A stretch of 51,239 bases of DNA from Deltaproteobacteria bacterium (GTDB lineage: Bacteria; Desulfobacterota; Desulfarculia; Adiutricales; Adiutricaceae), in contig JAISEL010000011.1 of assembly GCA_031264185.1 (NCBI GenBank), positions 1 through 51,239 of the forward strand. The letters run 5' to 3'. The first letter of the stretch is position 1; each line of letters opens with the position of its first letter. The translations under genes and the position numbers were made by a program. Shown here in pieces: positions 41,386 through 51,239 of this stretch. Under the pieces are notes generated by a model that worked only from the letters and a program-made list of their open reading frames with translations, searched no databases and was not told the DNA's origin.

Positions 41386-44300
41386 TTACCTGATAAGACT
41401 CAAAGCAAGCTGGGAGAGGCTGTTGGCCTGGGCCAGCATTGAGGTGGCGGCCTGGGAGAGGACGTTGTTCCTGGTGAACTCAGTCATCTCGGTGGCGACA
41501 TCAACATCCGAGATCCGGCTCTCTGAGGCTTGGAGGTTTTCGGCCTGGATGGTCAGGTTGGTCATGGTGTTTTCCAGACGGTTCTGGAGAGCCCCCAAAT
41601 CAGCCCGTATTTTGTCTTTTGTGTTGATGGACTCGGTAATGGCGTCCAAAGCCGCCTGAGCCGACGACTGGGTCCTGACTTCGGCCCCATTCCAGTCGCC
41701 GTCGGCGGCATTCTGGATTTCCACGAAACTATAACGATCCATACCGTTGATGATACCGGTGGTCAGATTAGGAGTTTCAATTTCGCCTTCATTGGCAATC
41801 CAAATATCCCTTTCCGCTCCGACGTCCCGACCGTTAAGGGTCAGATTCCAGACCTCATTGCCCAGGTCCGATTTGGTCTGGATTGGCTTCATGGATGCCC
41901 AATGCTGGCCGCCCAAGGTGAAGGTTGTTCCGGCCGAGTGCATCTCGGCATTCTCCACGTTTTCAAAACTGACAGCGTTCAGAGCGCTTTGCGAATGAGT
42001 ATCATCACCGGCCACTTCGCAGGCTAGAAGATCGTTGAAATTGCCGCCTTCTTTGGTGAAGACATAGAGCATGTCAACAGTCCGGCCGTTGGAATCGAAA
42101 GACTGGACCATGGCCCAAAAATCTTTTGAATAAGCATTAATGGCCGAGGCCAAAGCTCTGGTAGTAAAAGTCGCCGAGTTACTGCTCAGGTCGCCGACTT
42201 GAAATACTTCCTTGGAAGCGTCTATTTTGCCTGCCAATACTTCCGTAACCGGCGGATTTTCAGTTCTGGCCATGGCGGAGGCATCCACAGTCGGGCGGTT
42301 GGTATTGGTTAAGGGTACAGCGCTCAATAAACTGTCCAATCCCATAAGAGCATTGTTAAAATTTCCTACGGTAACAGGAACCCTGTTGTCTATGTCGGTA
42401 TATTGACTGGTTAGCCCAGTAAGTTTCGCTCGCATCCTGCCTTGAATACCTGAAAGTGAATCTCCGATGGACGTAATTTTTTTGACAAATCCCACTCCAG
42501 GAGGCAACAGATTGTCTGAGGCGGCATCTACAACTTTATCATATGCCTCCTTCATTGTGTTACCTTGAGCAGTTATCAAAGTCATCGGGTATGAAAGTGA
42601 CGAAGCATTTTGACTTATAACTACGTTCATCCAGTTTGCGTTAGTTTCTAATCCACCAAAAGTGACATACAACTCAGTAAATCCGCCTAATCTGGCGGCT
42701 ATAGTTGCCGAAGTAGTAACTTGACTCCCATTAACAAAAATACCGGTATTTTTTGTTCCTGCGTAACCAGTTACAAAAAGACTACCCCCAACCAGTGCGC
42801 TAATAGATGCGCTGAATACAGGCTTAGTGGCAAGAGCTGATGTCATTAGTTTATCTTCAATTGTAATCGTCAGTTCTCGCATTCCCAATTTTTCTGCTAT
42901 AGACTTTGTTGATGTCCAACAGGCAGTGTCGTCATCAACAAATATACCGGTCGAATACACGCCTGGAGCGGTAACTCCTGATACAAAACCAGTTGCAGTC
43001 AAAACAGCTTTAATGCCGGCAGAAGTACCTACCGCAATGAGAGATGAATTGGCCGATGTTCTAATAGCGTTAGCGCTTGCCTCCAGGGTGAGTCTGGTTA
43101 AACCGCTAAGTCTGCTGGCCAGCGAAGAAGAACTTGTCCATTTTCCGTTGGTATAGTCAACCCAGACATTAGTTTCGTAGGATCTGCTGTTGCTTATCGG
43201 AGTGGCTGTAATATCAAATCCCAGGATAGCAGTTACGCTCGTGTTGCTGAAAAGCGTCGTTGCACTGGCAACAGCGGCTACCGAAGTTACCGCTAAAGCA
43301 GACAGATTGAAAGTTACTTCAGATAGATTAAATTGAGCAGCTAGAGAGGCTGAAGTAGTCCAAATTCCGGCACCATCAGCATAAATACCGGTTCTAAAAT
43401 GGGCGCTCCCGTAAACATAATTGGCCGAAGTGACACCTAAAGACTTTAAATACGCCGATGTAGCCATAGAATTGGCGGCGGAGGCTGCTGAAGTCAGCAG
43501 CATGCCTGTCATAATTCTATTTATGGCTGATTGCAGAGCTGCTTCACCTGCGGCACTGTTAGCGCTGGCTTCAGAACCCAATATGGTGGCAGTGGCATCC
43601 AAATTACGGCCGTTGGTCAAGAGACTTCTTAAATCTCCGGTGGCCCAATATCCTCCATCGCCAATCTGCCAGGCAGATGTGTTGTAGCTGAACGTATAGG
43701 AGCTGTTGGTAACTGTTCCGCCGCCGGCGACTCCGGCCGATCCCCAATAATACGCTTCATCGCCTAAGCATATCGCCAATGTACCGCCGCATTGAATCTG
43801 CTGCATCAAGGCCGCGCTCTGCAGCTCAATACCCACACGGCTTTGAGTTCCGTTGTTAACCTTGTTGATCAAAGACTGGAGACTGTCGGTAGAACTGACC
43901 GTATACCGCCCGGCCAGATACCGGCCGGTCAGAAGAGCCGAGTCGCTGTTTTCCTTCCAGTCCCAGTTGTAACCGTAACTGAAAGTCTCACCGCTGGTGA
44001 AACCGGCCCGGCCATCTAAAGAACTGTATCCGGTGGTACAGCAGCCAGGTCCTTGCAAAGGCCCTGCCCCGGCGGCTCCCTGGCCCCAGATATCGTTTTT
44101 GGCGTCCCCGCCGATCCGAAGGCCGGTGGAGCTGGTGGCCCTGGCATCTCCTATGTTGACAAAGTAGTAATCCTCAGCTGGGTTATTAGAAACTCCAAAG
44201 TGGATCTTCAGGCCCTGTCCGCCGTGCTGGTTGGTCACCGACCCGTCTAACAGCTTAATTCCGTTAAAATTAGTGGCATTGGCGATACGGTCAATTTCCG

Positions 44301-44589
44301 CAGCCATGGCCTGATACTCGGAATTGATGATTTCCCTCTGGGCTGTGGTGTAAGTGCCGGTGGCGGCCTGCTCGGCCAGTTCCTTCATCCGGACGAGCTT
44401 TTCGTCAATGACACCCAGGGCACCGTCTGCCGTCTGAATCATGCTGATTGCATCGGCTGTATTTCTTATGCCCTGGTTCATGGTGGCGATGTCCGCCCGC
44501 ATCATTTCCCGGATAGCTAAGCCAGCTGCATCATCGGCGGCGCTGTTGATCCGGAGGCCGGACGACAGCCTCTGGACACTGGTTGACAA
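41386..44589 (-). CDS. silent flagellin cassette 1 (lacks start codon and N-terminal codons)
   Basis: The frame has 1,068 codons. It covers flagellin from the D0/D1 region (SVQRLSSGLRINSAADDAAGLAIREMM) to the C-terminus (MLAQANSLSQLALSLIR). It lacks the first 24 codons of the intact copy at 50677; upstream of the homology the frame reads only about nine codons before a TAG and has no ATG, ribosome binding site or GCCGATAA promoter. The TTG at 44587-44589 is therefore not a credible start. The middle (about 400-645) contains four repeats of about 70 residues. It lies head-on to the intact gene. It probably serves as an alternative body in an inversion switch; the protein would not be made as it stands. 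Confidence 0.85.
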   Translation of the reverse strand: MSTSVQRLSSGLRINSAADDAAGLAIREMMRADIATMNQGIRNTADAISMIQTADGALGVIDEKLVRMKELAEQAATGTYTTAQREIINSEYQAMAAEIDRIANATNFNGIKLLDGSVTNQHGGQGLKIHFGVSNNPAEDYYFVNIGDARATSSTGLRIGGDAKNDIWGQGAAGAGPLQGPGCCTTGYSSLDGRAGFTSGETFSYGYNWDWKENSDSALLTGRYLAGRYTVSSTDSLQSLINKVNNGTQSRVGIELQSAALMQQIQCGGTLAICLGDEAYYWGSAGVAGGGTVTNSSYTFSYNTSAWQIGDGGYWATGDLRSLLTNGRNLDATATILGSEASANSAAGEAALQSAINRIMTGMLLTSAASAANSMATSAYLKSLGVTSANYVYGSAHFRTGIYADGAGIWTTSASLAAQFNLSEVTFNLSALAVTSVAAVASATTLFSNTSVTAILGFDITATPISNSRSYETNVWVDYTNGKWTSSSSLASRLSGLTRLTLEASANAIRTSANSSLIAVGTSAGIKAVLTATGFVSGVTAPGVYSTGIFVDDDTACWTSTKSIAEKLGMRELTITIEDKLMTSALATKPVFSASISALVGGSLFVTGYAGTKNTGIFVNGSQVTTSATIAARLGGFTELYVTFGGLETNANWMNVVISQNASSLSYPMTLITAQGNTMKEAYDKVVDAASDNLLPPGVGFVKKITSIGDSLSGIQGRMRAKLTGLTSQYTDIDNRVPVTVGNFNNALMGLDSLLSAVPLTNTNRPTVDASAMARTENPPVTEVLAGKIDASKEVFQVGDLSSNSATFTTRALASAINAYSKDFWAMVQSFDSNGRTVDMLYVFTKEGGNFNDLLACEVAGDDTHSQSALNAVSFENVENAEMHSAGTTFTLGGQHWASMKPIQTKSDLGNEVWNLTLNGRDVGAERDIWIANEGEIETPNLTTGIINGMDRYSFVEIQNAADGDWNGAEVRTQSSAQAALDAITESINTKDKIRADLGALQNRLENTMTNLTIQAENLQASESRISDVDVATEMTEFTRNNVLSQAATSMLAQANSLSQLALSLIR

Positions 44590-44602
44590 CCGACCAAAAA
44601 TG
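44581..44602 (-). other. predicted recombination site S1 at the 5' edge of cassette 1
   Basis: Minus strand TCGGTTGTCAACC (44593-44581) is identical to the site in the intact gene, in the same reading frame (CGG TTG TCA ACC), and contains the odd palindrome GGTTG-T-CAACC. Similarity to the intact gene stops a few bases upstream. Predicted from comparison. Confidence 0.65.
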
Positions 44603-45047
44603 AATTGTAAAAACTATATAAAACAGGCAAATTAGTTTTTTAATTTTTCTAAACACCTCCATAAATAAAAAATATTCCTAAAAATTATTTAAACAAGTTT
44701 TTAACTTTTACATATTCATTTTTTACCATGATTATTGCAGAAAATAGTACTATAGCCAAAATTACTAGAAACGGACATTACAAAATTTTTGCTCTTCACA
44801 TTTAGAGAGCTAACCGCCATTCTGTTTTCTTTAATTGGCGTTATTATCTGTAAATTTATTTCTTAATTTTATTTAACAGATATTAATACTACTATTTAAT
44901 ATTAATATATCTATTTTTTACCTAACAATCACTTTCATAAATAAATTTCAGGCAAATCGCAAAGTCCGGAATTCATTCAATGAAGAAGCCCTCGGACAAA
45001 GATCATCCGAGGGCTTCCGGAGAAAACTATTCTTACCTTTAAACTTT
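44594..45047. other. AT-rich gap between the two silent flagellin cassettes
   Basis: No gene and no recognisable flagellar promoter. It holds a strong hairpin at 44985-45017 behind cassette 2. The rest is very AT-rich. Confidence 0.5.
44985..45017 (-). terminator. terminator hairpin of flagellin cassette 2
   Basis: GAAGCCCTCGGA (44985-44996) pairs perfectly with TCCGAGGGCTTC (45006-45017), 9-base loop, about 30 bases beyond the stop. The tail on the minus strand (TTCATTG) is only moderately T-rich. Confidence 0.7.
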
Positions 45048-48000
45048 TTACCTAATTAGGCTTAATGCCAGCTGGGAAAGGCTGTTAGCCTGAGCCAGCA
45101 TGGAGGTAGCTGCCTGGGAGAGGACATTGTTTCTGGTAAACTCAGTCATCTCGGTGGCAACATCCACATCTGAGATGCGGCTCTCCGAAGCCTGGAGGTT
45201 TTCGGACTGGACAGTCAGGTTGGTCATGGTGTTCTCCAGACGGTTCTGGAGAGCGCCTAAATCGGCCCTGATCTTGTCTTTCTTTGTGATGGACTCGGTA
45301 ATGGCATCAAGAGCTGCCTGAGCAGAGGATTGGGTCCGAACTTCGGCTCCATTCCAGTCTCCGTCAGCGGCGTTCTGTATTTCCACAAAACTAAAGCGGT
45401 CCATACCATTGATGATACCAGCGGTTAGGTTGGGAGTCTCAATTTCGCCTTCATTGGCAATCCAAATATCCCTTTCCGCTCCGACGTCCCGACCGTTTAG
45501 AGTCAGATTCCAGACCTCATTGCCCAGATCTGATTTGGTCTGGGTTGGCTTCATGGTCGCCCAGTGCTGGCCCCCCAATGTGAAGGAAGTGCCAGCCGAG
45601 TGCATCTCGGCATTCTCCACGTTTTCAAAACTGACAGCGTTCAGAGCGCTTTGGGAATGAACATCATCACCGGCCACTTCGCAGGCGAGAAGATCGTTGA
45701 AATTGCCCCCTTCTTTGGTGAAGACATAAAGCATGTCAACTGTCCTGCCGTTGGAATCGAAAGACTGGACCATGGCCCAAAAATCTTTAGAATAGGCATT
45801 AATGGCAGATGCCAAAGCCTTGGTGGTAAAAGTCCCCGAATCGCTGCTCATGTCACCGACCTTAAACACTTCCTTTGAGGAGTCTATCTTACCTGCCAAC
45901 ACTTTGGTCACCGGTGAATTTTCATTTCTGGTCATGGAGGCGGGCTCCACGGCCGGACGGTTAGTATTGGTCAATGGTACAGCGCTTAAATAACTGTCTA
46001 ACCCCACAAGAGCGTTGTTAACAGTTCCCCCGGCCAACGACGCCAAATCCCTGGTGTTTATGTCTGTGTACTGGCTGCCCAGACTTTTAAGTTTCTCCCG
46101 CATCCTTCCCTGAATGCCCAAAAATGAATCCCCGATTGATGTTATCTGTTTGACAAATCCCACTCCTGGAGGCAGTGTATTGTTTGACGCCTCGGTGCGA
46201 GTCTTGACATATACCTCGCCCACCGTGTTGCCTCTGCCTTTTATCAGATTAACCGGATAAGCAGATGTTAATCCATTTTGATTAATAACTTTGTCCATCC
46301 AGTTTGCTGCAGTTTCAGTCCCGTCAAAAGTGACAGTCAGTTCAGTAAATCCACCCAGAGCCGTCGCCAGGGAAGCTGAAGTAGTAAATTCGCTTCCCTT
46401 CATAAAAAGACCGGTATTTTTTACTCCTGCGTAGCCAGCGGTAAAAATAGCACTAGCAGCTGCCGAGGCGGCCCCCCTGAATACTGCGAGAGAACCTATA
46501 GCTGAATTCATCAGTTTGTCATCAATTGTAATCGTCAGTTCCCGCATACCTAATTTGTTTGCAATTGTTTTAGAAGATGTCCAGCAAGCAGTATTATCAT
46601 CTACAAAAATTCCAGTCGAATATACACCGGGGGCAGTAACTCCTGATATGAACCCAGTTGCCGATAAAACTGCTTTAACAATGGCTGAATCAGATACTGA
46701 TGTGAGATCGTAATTTGCAGATGTTCTAATAGCGTTGGCGCTTGTCTCAAGAGTGAGCCTGGTTAAACCGCTAAGTTTGCTGGCCAACGCAGAAGAACTT
46801 GTCCATTTTCCAGTTGCATAATCTACCCAGACATCAGTTTCGTAGGATCTGCTGTTACTAATCGGAGTAGCTGATATATTAAATCCAATGATTGCAGATA
46901 TGTTTGCTTTGCTGAAAAGCGCTGCTGCACTGGCAGAATTGGCTGCAGAGACGACCTCTAGAGCGGACAGATTGAAAGTTACCTCGGAAAGGTTAAATTT
47001 GCCAGCCAATGTGGCCGAAGTAGTCCAGATTCCGCCTCCGTCGGCGTAAATACCGGTTCTGAATTGGGCGCTTCCGTAGACATAATTGGCCGAAGTCACA
47101 CCTAGAGACTTTAAATACGCCGATGTAGCCTTAGAATTCGCGGCGGAAGAGTCTGAAGTCAGCAACATGCCTGTCATAATTCTGCTTATGGCTGATTGAA
47201 GGGCTGCCTCTCCTGCGGCGCTGTTAGCGCTCGCCTCAGAACCCAATACGGTGGCACTGGCATCCAAATTGCGGCCGTTGGTCAATAAACTTCTCAAATC
47301 TCCGGTTGCCCAATATCCTTCATTCCCAAGCTGCCAGGCAGATGTATTATATCTGAAAGTATATGAGCTGTTAGTAATTGTTCCGCCTCCAGCTACTCCA
47401 GCTGATCCCCAATAATACGCTTCTTCGCCGAGACATATGGCCAATGTGCCGCCGCATTGAATCTGCTGCATCAAGGCAGCGCTCTGAAGTTCAATACCCA
47501 CACGGCTTTGGGTTCCGTTGTTGACCTTGTTGATCAAAGACTGCAGACTGTCTGCAGAGCTGACCGTATATCTCCCAGCCAAATACCTGCCTGTCAAAAG
47601 AGCCGAGTCCTTGTCTTCCTTCCAGTCCCAGTTGTACCCGTAACTAAAAGTTTCTCCGCTGGTGAATCCGGCCCGGCCATCTAAAGAGCTGTAGCCGGTG
47701 GTGCAACAGCCTGGCCCGGCTAGAGGCCCTGCCCCGGCGGCGCCCTGACCCCAGATATCGTTTTTGGCATCCCCTCCGATCCTAAGTCCGGTGGAGCTGG
47801 TCGCCCTGGCATCCCCAATGTTGACAAAATAGTAATCCTCGGCCGGATTATTGGAGATCCCAAAGTGGATCTTCAGGCCCTGTCCGCCGTGCTGGTTGGT
47901 CACCGACCCGTCCAAAAGCTTAATTCCGTTGAAATTGGTGGCATTGGCGATACGGTCAATTTCCGCAGCCATGGCCTGATACTCGGAATTGATGATTTCC

Positions 48001-48263
48001 CTCTGGGCTGTGGTGTAAGTGCCGGTAGCGGCCTGCTCGGCCAGTTCCTTCATCCGGGTGAGCTTTTCATCAATGACGCCCAGAGCTCCGTCGGCCGTCT
48101 GAATCATACTAATGGCATCAGCCGTATTCCGAATACCCTGGTTCATGGTAGCGATGTCCGCCCGCATCATTTCCCGGATAGCTAACCCGGCGGCGTCATC
48201 GGCGGCGCTGTTGATCCGAAGTCCAGATGACAACCTTTGAACGCTAGTTGACAACCGATCATA
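45048..48263 (-). CDS. silent flagellin cassette 2 (lacks start codon and N-terminal codons)
   Basis: The homologous part covers about 1,070 codons, from YDRLSTSVQRL to LSLIR. The frame stays open to a TTG at 48305, but those 14 upstream codons (AT-rich, no homology) are not credible coding. No ribosome binding site or sigma-28 promoter precedes it. The first 190 or so and last 260 or so residues are nearly identical to cassette 1, while the repeat-rich middle differs at many positions. It has its own terminator. Together with cassette 1 and the intact gene at 50677 it gives three interchangeable flagellin bodies. Confidence 0.85.
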   Translation of the reverse strand, partial: YDRLSTSVQRLSSGLRINSAADDAAGLAIREMMRADIATMNQGIRNTADAISMIQTADGALGVIDEKLTRMKELAEQAATGTYTTAQREIINSEYQAMAAEIDRIANATNFNGIKLLDGSVTNQHGGQGLKIHFGISNNPAEDYYFVNIGDARATSSTGLRIGGDAKNDIWGQGAAGAGPLAGPGCCTTGYSSLDGRAGFTSGETFSYGYNWDWKEDKDSALLTGRYLAGRYTVSSADSLQSLINKVNNGTQSRVGIELQSAALMQQIQCGGTLAICLGEEAYYWGSAGVAGGGTITNSSYTFRYNTSAWQLGNEGYWATGDLRSLLTNGRNLDASATVLGSEASANSAAGEAALQSAISRIMTGMLLTSDSSAANSKATSAYLKSLGVTSANYVYGSAQFRTGIYADGGGIWTTSATLAGKFNLSEVTFNLSALEVVSAANSASAAALFSKANISAIIGFNISATPISNSRSYETDVWVDYATGKWTSSSALASKLSGLTRLTLETSANAIRTSANYDLTSVSDSAIVKAVLSATGFISGVTAPGVYSTGIFVDDNTACWTSSKTIANKLGMRELTITIDDKLMNSAIGSLAVFRGAASAAASAIFTAGYAGVKNTGLFMKGSEFTTSASLATALGGFTELTVTFDGTETAANWMDKVINQNGLTSAYPVNLIKGRGNTVGEVYVKTRTEASNNTLPPGVGFVKQITSIGDSFLGIQGRMREKLKSLGSQYTDINTRDLASLAGGTVNNALVGLDSYLSAVPLTNTNRPAVEPASMTRNENSPVTKVLAGKIDSSKEVFKVGDMSSDSGTFTTKALASAINAYSKDFWAMVQSFDSNGRTVDMLYVFTKEGGNFNDLLACEVAGDDVHSQSALNAVSFENVENAEMHSAGTSFTLGGQHWATMKPTQTKSDLGNEVWNLTLNGRDVGAERDIWIANEGEIETPNLTAGIINGMDRFSFVEIQNAADGDWNGAEVRTQSSAQAALDAITESITKKDKIRADLGALQNRLENTMTNLTVQSENLQASESRISDVDVATEMTEFTRNNVLSQAATSMLAQANSLSQLALSLIR
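48247..48263 (-). other. predicted recombination site S2 at the 5' edge of cassette 2
   Basis: On the minus strand the 17 bases TATGATCGGTTGTCAAC are identical to the intact gene at 50740-50756 and are in the same frame (TAT GAT CGG TTG TCA AC). The next base differs (T instead of C). Homology stops upstream of this motif. Confidence 0.7.
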
Positions 48264-48722
48264 AAGTATTGTATAAAAAGATAGGTAAAAACGTAATAAA
48301 ATCAAAAGATTAAAAAATTTAACAAAATAGAGAACTTGATTTTTTGCCTCTAGGTCACCTCAGGGTCACCCTGTATCAACCTCATGATTATATAATTTAT
48401 TGTTTTTGTTTAGTTATAAAAAACTATTAAAAATAAATTTTTGACCATCAAAATTTATGTGATAAATGCAAACTGCTTTAATAAATTAAGTCTTTTATTC
48501 TATATGAGAATATTTTTTTTTTTGTCATCATAAAATATGGATCTTAAGTTTTATAAATTCTGTTATAAAATAATTAACTAAGTAATCATATTTATAGTCT
48601 GGAAAATCTGATTTTTATAAAAATTTCTCTTTGTTATTTAAATTATTAGTCTTGACTAACTGCCTTTGACCGATTAAAATGATTGAGTGCGTGTTCATAG
48701 ACCAAACTCACTGGAGCAGGCC
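48264..48722. other. AT-rich gap between cassette 2 and the recombinase gene
   Basis: No gene. Contains two adjacent odd palindromes at 48352-48372 and long A/T runs. It presumably holds the recombinase promoter; none stands out enough to place. Confidence 0.45.
48352..48372. promoter_or_regulatory. two adjacent odd palindromes, possible protein-binding site
   Basis: AGGT-C-ACCT (48352-48360) and AGGGT-C-ACCCT (48362-48372) lie one base apart and share GGTCACC as a direct repeat. Dyads with a single central base resemble the form of the GGTTG-T-CAACC site. It may bind the recombinase arm domain or a regulator. Function is inference. Confidence 0.4.
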
Positions 48723-49922
48723 ATGAAAGTCCGACTGACCAAAAATTTGATAGACCGTATTCAACCTGCCGCCAAACGTCAGATTATTCTGGACTCTGAG
48801 GTCTCAGGTTTGGCTTTATATGTTACCGGCCAATTCCTGAACGACAAGGGGGAAGTCAAGGGAGGCCATAAATCATTTTACTTTAATTACAATCTGGGCC
48901 GGGGAGTGAAAAGGCAGCTCCACCTGGGGCCTTATCCGGAACTGACTGTCCAGAAGGCCAGGCTCAAGGTCCAGGAACTTAAGGTTGATATCGCCTGCGG
49001 CCGGGATCCCGCCAGCCGGAAAACTGAGATGTCTAAAGACTTTCTGACTGTGGATTACTGTCTGGACAAGTTTTTCCGGGAATACGTTGATGTTTATTTA
49101 AAGAAATTCACGGCTAAGGCCTACTATTCTTTCCGAAAGACCTATATTTCCCCCACTTTAGGCCATCGGGATGTGATATCCATCTCTTTTCAGGATCTCT
49201 CCCAGCTTCATAAAGACCTTAAGGACAAGCCGACTTCGGCCAACAGGGTCCTGGCATTATGTTCGAAGTTCCTCAATTGGTGCGAAAAAGAGGGGTTTAG
49301 GGCCAGAGGGTCGGCCTCCACCAAGGGGATCGAGAGATATCAGGAAAAACCGATCTTAAAGTTTTTAAGTGTGGACCAATTAAATGAAATCTGGGACACC
49401 ATCATCCGGCTGGAAAAAGATAATAATATCAATCTCCTGCCGGCCACCGCTTTAAAGATTCTGATGCTGACCGGGGCCAGAAAAAATGAGATTTTAGGCC
49501 TTAAGTGGTCGGAAATTGAGTTTGATAAAGGCCGGGCTGTTCTGCAGGACAGTAAAACCGGCTTTAAAGTACTTTATCTGCCGGAACAGGTGCTGGACCT
49601 GCTGAACACCCTGCCCAGAGAAAGTGAATTCGCTTTTCCCAGCCGTTCGGTGAGCGGTCACCTGTTTGACCTTCAGTGGCAGTGGAGGCAGGTTTTAAAA
49701 GAGGCCAAACTGGAAGGCCGGTGGCGTATCCATGACCTTAGGCACGGCTTTGCCTCAGCTGCGGTCAATAACGGCGGTTCTCTGCCGTTCATCGGCTTTC
49801 TTTTAGGTCATAAACGCGCCAGAACAACCGAAAGGTACGCCCACGTGGCCGAACACCCGGCCCAGGCCTTATTAAATCAAGTGGCTAAATCCATCATCCC
49901 CGCCCTGGCCAAGGGCAACTAA
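48723..49922 (+). CDS. tyrosine recombinase (integrase family with an arm-binding domain)
   Basis: From the ATG at 48723 (GGAG at 48713-48716) the protein has 399 residues; a GTG at 48687 would add 12 without a better ribosome binding site. The N-terminal arm-type DNA-binding domain (DUF4102-like: DSEVSGLALYVT, FYFNYNLGRGVKRQLHLGPYPELTVQKARLKVQEL) and SAM-like core-binding domain are followed by the catalytic domain with all six residues in place: R253, K278, H337, R340 (HDLRH), H363 and nucleophile Y372. Normally such proteins integrate islands or phages, but no attachment tRNA or cargo is visible here. It lies inside the predicted invertible segment, as Hin does in Salmonella, although Hin is a serine recombinase. 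Confidence 0.9.
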   Translation: MKVRLTKNLIDRIQPAAKRQIILDSEVSGLALYVTGQFLNDKGEVKGGHKSFYFNYNLGRGVKRQLHLGPYPELTVQKARLKVQELKVDIACGRDPASRKTEMSKDFLTVDYCLDKFFREYVDVYLKKFTAKAYYSFRKTYISPTLGHRDVISISFQDLSQLHKDLKDKPTSANRVLALCSKFLNWCEKEGFRARGSASTKGIERYQEKPILKFLSVDQLNEIWDTIIRLEKDNNINLLPATALKILMLTGARKNEILGLKWSEIEFDKGRAVLQDSKTGFKVLYLPEQVLDLLNTLPRESEFAFPSRSVSGHLFDLQWQWRQVLKEAKLEGRWRIHDLRHGFASAAVNNGGSLPFIGFLLGHKRARTTERYAHVAEHPAQALLNQVAKSIIPALAKGN

Positions 49923-49944
49923 CCTCACCTAATATAATTATAGT

Positions 49945-49972
49945 TGCCAGTTACTCTTAAATATAACTGGCA
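49945..49972. repeat. inverted repeat after the recombinase gene
   Basis: TGCCAGTTA (49945-49953) and TAACTGGCA (49964-49972) form a 9-bp stem with a 10-base loop. There is no strong T run after it. It may end the recombinase transcript or be a site for a DNA-binding protein. Confidence 0.5.
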
Positions 49973-50469
49973 CCAAAAAGCCCGTTCTATTTTGGAAGTG
50001 ACCATAGGCTGCCTTTGGTCAATGAGTCCAATTTTACCATAATTATCAGTCCTTGAATATTACAACAAATATTACAGGTTAATGCAAAATAAATAACTCT
50101 AACAATACCTTTTTACAAGCTATTAAGGTTATTTATTTTCCGGCGCCTGAATCATATCCAGGGAATCAATAAATATGCCAATAAATCATTGATTAAATCA
50201 AAGGCCTTATTTCGTATTAATGGCTTTAAGCCGCTGACCGAAAGGTTTTCCAGGTTTTAGTCATTAATTGCTTTAGGTTTAGCTGTATAAGCATGATTTA
50301 AGAATATAACGCTGATAAAAATATTTTACTAGAGGTAAAACAAAGATATGGCTGATAAGTAGCATTAAAAACAAATGACCTGCAACTTTTATTAATTGAA
50401 TAGAACATGTATTTTACTCAAAGGTCAGGTTTAACAATAGGTAAAGTTAAATTTAGTTGTGAAAAAGAC

Positions 50470-50496
50470 TTAAGGATTAAGAATTTATGCCGATAA
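50470..50496 (+). promoter_or_regulatory. sigma-28 (FliA) promoter of the flagellin gene
   Basis: GCCGATAA at 50489-50496 is a perfect sigma-28 -10 element. TTAAGGAT at 50470-50477, at the standard 11-base spacing, matches 5 of 8 bases of the -35 consensus TAAAGTTT. It is the only such site I found near the three flagellin copies, and it lies inside the predicted invertible segment. Confidence 0.8.
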
Positions 50497-50663
50497 GATA
50501 TCCAAACAGGAACCCATGCCTGAGGGCAGAGTTTCCGTTTATACACAACTAAGTTAAAAAACAGGCTTAATCCAGTTTATCTTAGTGAACAAGGAAAAAG
50601 CCTTAAGGAAAACCGGCGGAAATTTTTCTTCCGGCCGGGTGGCAAGGATGCCAATACATACTC

Positions 50664-50676
50664 AAGGAGGATTCAC
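50664..50676 (+). promoter_or_regulatory. ribosome binding site of the intact flagellin gene
   Basis: AAGGAGG at 50664-50670, six bases before the ATG. The two silent copies have nothing equivalent at their 5' ends. Confidence 0.85.
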
Positions 50677-51239
50677 ATGGCTCTTATTATCAACCACAAC
50701 ATGACCGCTCAAAATGCGGCCAGGAACCTGGGGACAATCTATGATCGGTTGTCAACCAGTGTCCAGCGGCTGTCTTCCGGCCTCCGGATCAACAGCGCGG
50801 CCGATGATGCAGCTGGCTTAGCAATCCGGGAAATGATGCGGGCGGACATCGCCACCATGAACCAGGGCATAAGAAATACGGCCGATGCAATCAGCATGAT
50901 TCAGACGGCTGACGGGGCCCTGGGGGTCATTGACGAAAAGCTCGTCCGGATGAAGGAACTGGCCGAGCAGGCCGCGACCGGCACTTACACCACAGCCCAG
51001 AGGGAAATCATCAAGTCCGAGTATCAGGCCATGGCTGCGGAAATTGACCGCATCGCCAACGCCACCAATTTCAACGGAATTAAGCTTCTGGACGGGTCGG
51101 TGACCAACCAGCACGGCGGGCAGGGCCTGAAGATCCACTTTGGAGTCTCCAATAACCCGGCTGAGGATTACTACTTTGTCAACATAGGAGATGCCCGGGC
51201 TACCAGCTCCACCGGTCTTAGGATCGGCGGAGACGCTAA
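50677..51239 (+). CDS. fliC: intact-start flagellin gene (runs off the window)
   Basis: The visible 187 codons start MALIINHNMTAQNAARNLG, the typical flagellin D0 start, and continue IYDRLSTSVQRLSSGLRINSAADDAAGLAIREMM into D1. From codon 25 onward it is nearly identical to the two silent cassettes. It has a strong ribosome binding site and a sigma-28 promoter, so it should be the expressed filament protein in this DNA orientation. Its 3' end, and so its variable middle, lies outside the window. Confidence 0.93.
   Translation, partial: MALIINHNMTAQNAARNLGTIYDRLSTSVQRLSSGLRINSAADDAAGLAIREMMRADIATMNQGIRNTADAISMIQTADGALGVIDEKLVRMKELAEQAATGTYTTAQREIIKSEYQAMAAEIDRIANATNFNGIKLLDGSVTNQHGGQGLKIHFGVSNNPAEDYYFVNIGDARATSSTGLRIGGDA
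50740..50756 (+). other. predicted recombination site S3 inside the intact flagellin gene
   Basis: TATGATCGGTTGTCAAC at codons 22-27 (Y22 D23 R24 L25 S26 T27) matches S2 exactly over 17 bases and S1 over the 13 bases TCGGTTGTCAACC (50745-50757). It is inverted relative to S1 and S2. Confidence 0.7.

Follow-up and report, generated by a model that had tools for sequence, protein, structure and literature searches.

Probable flagellin switching by site-specific inversion inside the gene, with a P4-type integrase, in the Adiutricaceae

How can flagellin genes that lack a beginning be of use to the genome that carries them? The question is posed by a locus in the window analysed here, the whole 51,239 nucleotides of contig JAISEL010000011.1 of a Deltaproteobacteria bacterium of the family Adiutricaceae (assembly GCA_031264185.1; the genome is called G000 below, and the contig C124). 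Two silent flagellin bodies lie there next to a flagellin start and a gene for a tyrosine recombinase (Int). The sequence of this locus, together with a comparison set of 37 genomes of the family, makes it very probable that a P4-type integrase inverts DNA site-specifically and in frame inside the flagellin gene, giving the bacterium a choice of filament protein. Flagellin is one of the main targets of recognition by hosts and of phages that bind flagella.

The silent bodies A (41386..44589, 1067 codons, no promoter) and B (45048..48254, encoding a protein 85% identical to that of A) are both on the minus strand. Each is open for about 1,067 codons, through to the C-terminal domain, and a domain search detects in both Flagellin_N (from profile position 20–21) and Flagellin_C. 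A preliminary description of this DNA had stated that they are without start codon, ribosome binding site, promoter, and the first 24 or so codons; the loss is real, and its exact extent is 23 codons. In the upstream sequence that we checked, no in-frame start is preceded by a ribosome binding site, and there is no sigma-28-like promoter: ahead of A there is an in-frame stop 7 codons away and no start codon, and ahead of B the sole candidate is a TTG without Shine-Dalgarno sequence. The plus-strand gene has, as described, everything that these bodies lack. A sigma-28-like promoter (TAAGGATT-N10-GCCGATAA, 50471..50496, two mismatches) is followed by a Shine-Dalgarno AGGAGG (50664..50669, within AAGGAGG), the ATG at 50677, and a constant N-terminal coding segment of codons 1–23 (MALIINHNMTAQNAARNLGTIYD, 50677..50745). 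From codon 24 onward this gene matches bodies A and B. The 5' part of the body to which it is currently joined (50746..51239) is cut off by the contig end and continues into another contig, C32 (L029), in either orientation of the latter.

The homology of the three flagellins starts at the same codon, in frame, within an exact 11-nt core, CGGTTGTCAAC. This core is found at three sites: S1 (44582..44592, minus strand, left flank TTTGGT), S2 (48247..48257, minus strand, left flank TATGAT), and the expressed site S3 (50746..50756, plus strand, left flank TATGAT, about 275 nt after the promoter). The onset of homology claimed previously is thus placed at 44592, 48257, and 50746. In the 120 nt ahead of the core, the similarity among the three is at background (about 20–31%), and the repeats that start at it are 90–94% complementary over 500 nt. 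The int gene (48687..49922, plus strand, with an alternative ATG start at 48723) lies between S2 and S3. The mobile segment would consist of this gene, the promoter, the ribosome binding site, and flagellin codons 1–23. It would be flanked by complete, oppositely oriented bodies that begin at codon 24, each headed by TGNTCGGTTGTCAAC. By strand exchange inside TCGGTTGTCAAC, the recombinase would recombine the expressed site with one of the silent sites and invert the DNA that separates them, flipping 2.5 kb with S2 and S3 or 6.2 kb with S1 and S3. Promoter, start, and 23 codons would then be joined in frame to another body, the filament would be built from the new flagellin, and the earlier body would fall silent.

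Evidence for such exchanges comes from four genomes of one genus. Three of them (G028, G029, and G031) have a silent body next to tolQ- and efp-like genes; in the fourth (G033), this body is expressed. G033 and G031 are 97% identical over the 100 nt 3' of the core and 37.5% identical, i.e., at background, over the 120 nt 5' of it. The expressed gene of G033 has the reverse relation to that of G028, with 96.7% identity before the core and 57% over the 65 nt compared after it. Hence, the expressed bodies of G028 and G033 differ, though their promoter sides match. The body expressed in G028 is 78.5% identical (65 nt compared) to a silent body of G027 that lies beside ruv/yebC-like genes. The exchange stretch is confined to 12 bp, TCGGTTGTCAAC, because it is bounded by a marker of the flank at position −2 and by a marker of the body at position +11. 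Read from the assemblies, the comparison of G033 with G028 and G031 shows that different bodies have been joined to the promoter and start at this 12-bp site, in exchanges that happened between species.

A further observation comes from G006, a member of the window's genus without Int orthologue and without core. Its flagellin at the surE-dnaJ position, which is the place of silent body A in the window's genome, directly carries the promoter region. The segment immediately 5' of that flagellin is 72% identical over 434 nt to the promoter/leader segment of the window (50243..50676, plus strand), which lies 6 kb away from body A and is inverted. The comparison of sister genomes that the preliminary description had proposed therefore came out in its favour, and its claim that an inversion at the core moves promoter and start between bodies draws support from the Int orthologues, the conservation of the core, the 12-bp exchange, and G006.

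The core itself is conserved exactly. It is free of mismatches at all 15 sites found in nine genomes. The longer pattern CGGTTGTCAACNAGNGT occurs in 9 of the 37 genomes, where every occurrence is a flagellin site; the remaining 28 lack it, and its reversed control has zero occurrences in all 37. Three relatives lacking Int encode the same residues and spell them AGATTGTCCAC or AGGTTATCCAC. Since the joint chance of CGG-TTG-TCA, computed from flagellin codon usage, is near 0.004 per site, the core is conserved as DNA and not as protein alone. Position −2 is an A at all four expressed sites and a T or G at 10 of the 11 silent ones (S2 being the exception); from +11 onward, the sequence belongs to the body. 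The flank of S2, TATGAT, differs from that of every other silent site and is possibly a relic of an earlier exchange or conversion. A search of viral contigs for the site found none.

The recombinase has both domains of a P4-type enzyme, Phage_integrase and Arm-DNA-bind_3 (domain search; PF13356, E-value 1.9e-11). The expectation of a full catalytic set was borne out: R265, K290, H349, R352, H375, and Y384 are all present and invariant across five orthologues. A structure model (predicted local distance difference test [pLDDT] 75.6) matches lambda Int and P4-like arm domains in fold. The orthologues occur in five genomes of three genera (G000; G028, G029, and G031; G044), and in every one of the five a start-less flagellin body adjoins the int gene. 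The contig of G028 also holds the expressed start, arranged as in the window. In a class-wide profile search, the orthologues score 568–589 bits and the next match 345 bits, and they form a single clade in the tree (support 97/94). Truncated flagellins beginning at profile position 20–21 recur among the genomes of the family. We infer that this recombinase is the catalyst and that inversion is ongoing within present populations and reversible.

The arm-binding domain is kept in the orthologue of G044 and missing from those of G028, G029, and G031, upstream of whose int genes no remnant of it was found. This loss looks like domestication, as an invertase whose sites lie in cis may be able to do without an element's arm sites. 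We also examined more distant relatives of Int (in Smac51, G040, G034, Alphaproteobacteria, and Desulfobulbus) as candidate flagellin switches and rejected them: neither flagellin nor the full core adjoins them in the stretches examined. The nearest ones located away from flagellin are in L133 (G040:C196, 10269–11231) and L136 (G044:C389, 3–821). The former is near a contig end and adjoins two similar glycosyltransferase-like genes, which might be another variable surface locus; the latter adjoins dnaX- and ileS-like genes.

The choice of bodies extends beyond the window. A fourth start-less, silent site (S4) is located on contig C71 (position 7728), and contig C32 (12,954 bp) has a further body at each end, C and D, which are inverted relative to each other. 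The preliminary description was right to regard the bodies as interchangeable but set their number too low: the genome has at least four instead of three, and one more site. They are more than 90% alike at their ends, and their middles are about 14–50% identical for most pairs. The ends of C124 and C71 share 119 nt, as do the two ends of C32, and all four pairings overlap by 104 nt. Because these overlaps occur in all pairings, the most likely place of C32 is between C124 and C71, in one or the other orientation, and which body is joined to the start would depend on that orientation. The segment 3057–9789 of C32, flanked by bodies C and D, encodes a NeuB-family synthase, a NeuA-like cytidylyltransferase, a methyltransferase, and MbnB/TglH/ChrH-like proteins; inspection also revealed a truA-like gene on this contig. 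Nonulosonate (NeuB-type) genes often serve flagellin glycosylation, and the NeuB-type block of C32 also adjoins the flagellin of G006. Recombination between S3 and S4 would flip a 13-kb segment with nonulosonate (NeuB/NeuA-like) genes. The genome also has a separate, intact flagellin on contig C157 (L030, from 13181) with a frame of 1692 codons, far above the usual; similar giants exist in several relatives.

Could the start-less bodies simply be pseudogenes, the dead remnants of a rearrangement that involves no switching? They are inexpressible as arranged, which fits that explanation. On the other hand, they are free of stop codons (none in the five bodies checked). A and B have diverged with a nonsynonymous rate (dN) of 0.088 and a synonymous rate (dS) of 0.70, giving a dN/dS of 0.125 that falls to about 0.02 at the two ends (the first 200 codons and the last 67). 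By these values, A and B are under strong purifying selection, which argues that they are used, since neither could be expressed as assembled. Together with the body whose state, silent or expressed, differs between species, this makes decay very improbable. Even less credible is that a small mobile element, with Int as its integrase and the sites as its attachment sites, has inserted into a flagellin gene. The P4-type domains and fold of Int are what such an element would have, yet S2 and S3 are inverted and not direct repeats, the window has no tRNA, and the S2–S3 interval has no cargo apart from int. Integration of a prophage or island was rejected on the same three grounds. Moreover, the same layout of Int and sites recurs at other chromosomal places in other genera, the Int proteins of G028, G029, G031, and G044 being 54–60% identical to that of the window. 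The usual setting of an element integrase, a tRNA or attachment site with mobile cargo, is thus not found here, and because tRNA and cargo are absent, we class Int as a probable domesticated descendant.

Inversion or gene conversion by RecA-dependent homologous recombination between the long 5' inverted repeats, with the recombinase as a bystander, deserves more attention. The window has 500-nt inverted repeats at 90–94%, S3 and S4 are exactly alike for 107 nt counted from the core, and inversion of the RecA type could also occur in G000 because the first 494 nt of its bodies are 90–98% identical. That identity is one of several observations that weigh against a site-specific switch. In addition, S2 has the expressed-type base at −2 though it is silent, and the assemblies of G003, G004, G027, and G033 contain sites but lack Int. 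An exact repeat of about 134 nt accounts equally well for the ambiguous orientation of C32; since the overlaps of C124, C71, and C32 fit such a repeat just as well, we rejected the idea that the assembly breaks prove mixed populations. The promoter segment is also missing from the assemblies of G003, G004, and G027, where it may, together with Int, be an unbinned short contig. What decides against RecA is the position of the exchange, which in G028, G033, and G031 is limited to 12 bp, with the sequence of the flank up to −2 and that of the body from +11; homologous recombination alone was ruled out on this basis. Homologous exchange would be expected at the longest exact runs between bodies, which in G029 (38 nt) and G044 (62 nt) are located further downstream. 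Furthermore, the degenerate codon positions of the core are invariant, the pattern is restricted to genomes with such sites, and Int is kept beside the bodies in three genera. Hence, we regard RecA-driven inversion as improbable, albeit less so than the two preceding alternatives, and retain site-specific inversion by the P4-type integrase.

As to the history of this switch, we think it likely that an integrase from a mobile element was domesticated in one family of gut bacteria as a dedicated flagellin switch. It would change all but the first 23 residues among at least four bodies, act at sites whose core is conserved and whose left arm varies, and have shed its arm domain in one genus; one inversion in the window's genome may also flip the 13-kb glycosylation-type segment. 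If so, a tyrosine recombinase of mobile-element type picks among at least four bodies inside a gene, in uncultured gut bacteria. The four relatives with an Int orthologue (G028, G029, G031, and G044) are Deltaproteobacteria metagenome-assembled genomes, and their isolate names, with general knowledge, indicate that the bacteria probably come from termite guts. One contig end in G028 (C288; L061, 1–13) resembles an Illumina adapter. The benefit of switching would presumably be escape from phages or from recognition, through antigen or phage-receptor variation, or altered filament properties. Because one genus has lost the arm domain, the orthologues provide a natural series from integrase to invertase, and both the recombinase and the 12-bp stretch of exchange are sufficiently well defined for direct testing.

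Several known systems share parts of this arrangement. The sap S-layer locus of Campylobacter fetus also has a single promoter, many homologues that share conserved 5' ends but have no promoter of their own, and nested inversions; these, however, are RecA-dependent homologous events without a local site-specific enzyme, whereas here a recombinase gene is part of the locus. Hin of Salmonella also alternates flagellins through site-specific inversion (PMC8987985); it is, however, a serine recombinase that flips a promoter outside the coding sequence of two flagellins. Neither trait was found here, where the enzyme is a tyrosine recombinase, the junction falls within the coding sequence, and the bodies number more than two. 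The pneumococcal hsdS locus (PsrA) resembles ours in its intragenic inversion and in having partly truncated copies of one gene on either side of a tyrosine recombinase gene (PMC4948785), but it concerns a restriction-modification specificity gene with 15-bp repeats, on which other recombinases act too. The R64 shufflon combines a tyrosine recombinase (Rci) with sfx sites in both orientations inside the coding sequence that have a conserved core and one conserved arm, the other arm being variable (PMC11852207). It swaps C-terminal ends, whereas here everything except the N-terminus would be swapped and the promoter would move. The asymmetry of sfx has been proposed to limit Rci to inversion (PMC11852207), and by analogy the variable left arm, with a conserved core and right side, may confine Int in the same way. 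The right side is also under coding constraint, which partly confounds this reading. Such a restriction would avoid deletions when sites end up in direct orientation.

The closest counterpart is the vsa locus of Mycoplasma pulmonis. In the literature that we searched, outside which most subscription papers fall, we found no case of silent flagellins with site-specific recombination or of intragenic flagellin inversion. As far as searched, the flagellin version thus looks undescribed, as the preliminary description had supposed. Its claim of novelty holds only in part: because intragenic inversion at vsa, a locus that includes a tyrosine recombinase gene, already moves a promoter and 5' coding sequence (PMC2268961), the type of mechanism is not itself new. 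The defining traits of vsa, i.e., a single promoter and start, silent bodies without both, and inverted sites at the junction, are all found here. As there, promoter, ribosome binding site, and 5' coding sequence would be moved onto silent bodies near a gene of the lambda-integrase family (HvsR; PMC2268961). The two differ in what is moved and by what: at vsa, the first 714 nt of surface lipoproteins, and here, the first 69 nt of a flagellin, with a sigma-28-like promoter and a P4-type integrase.

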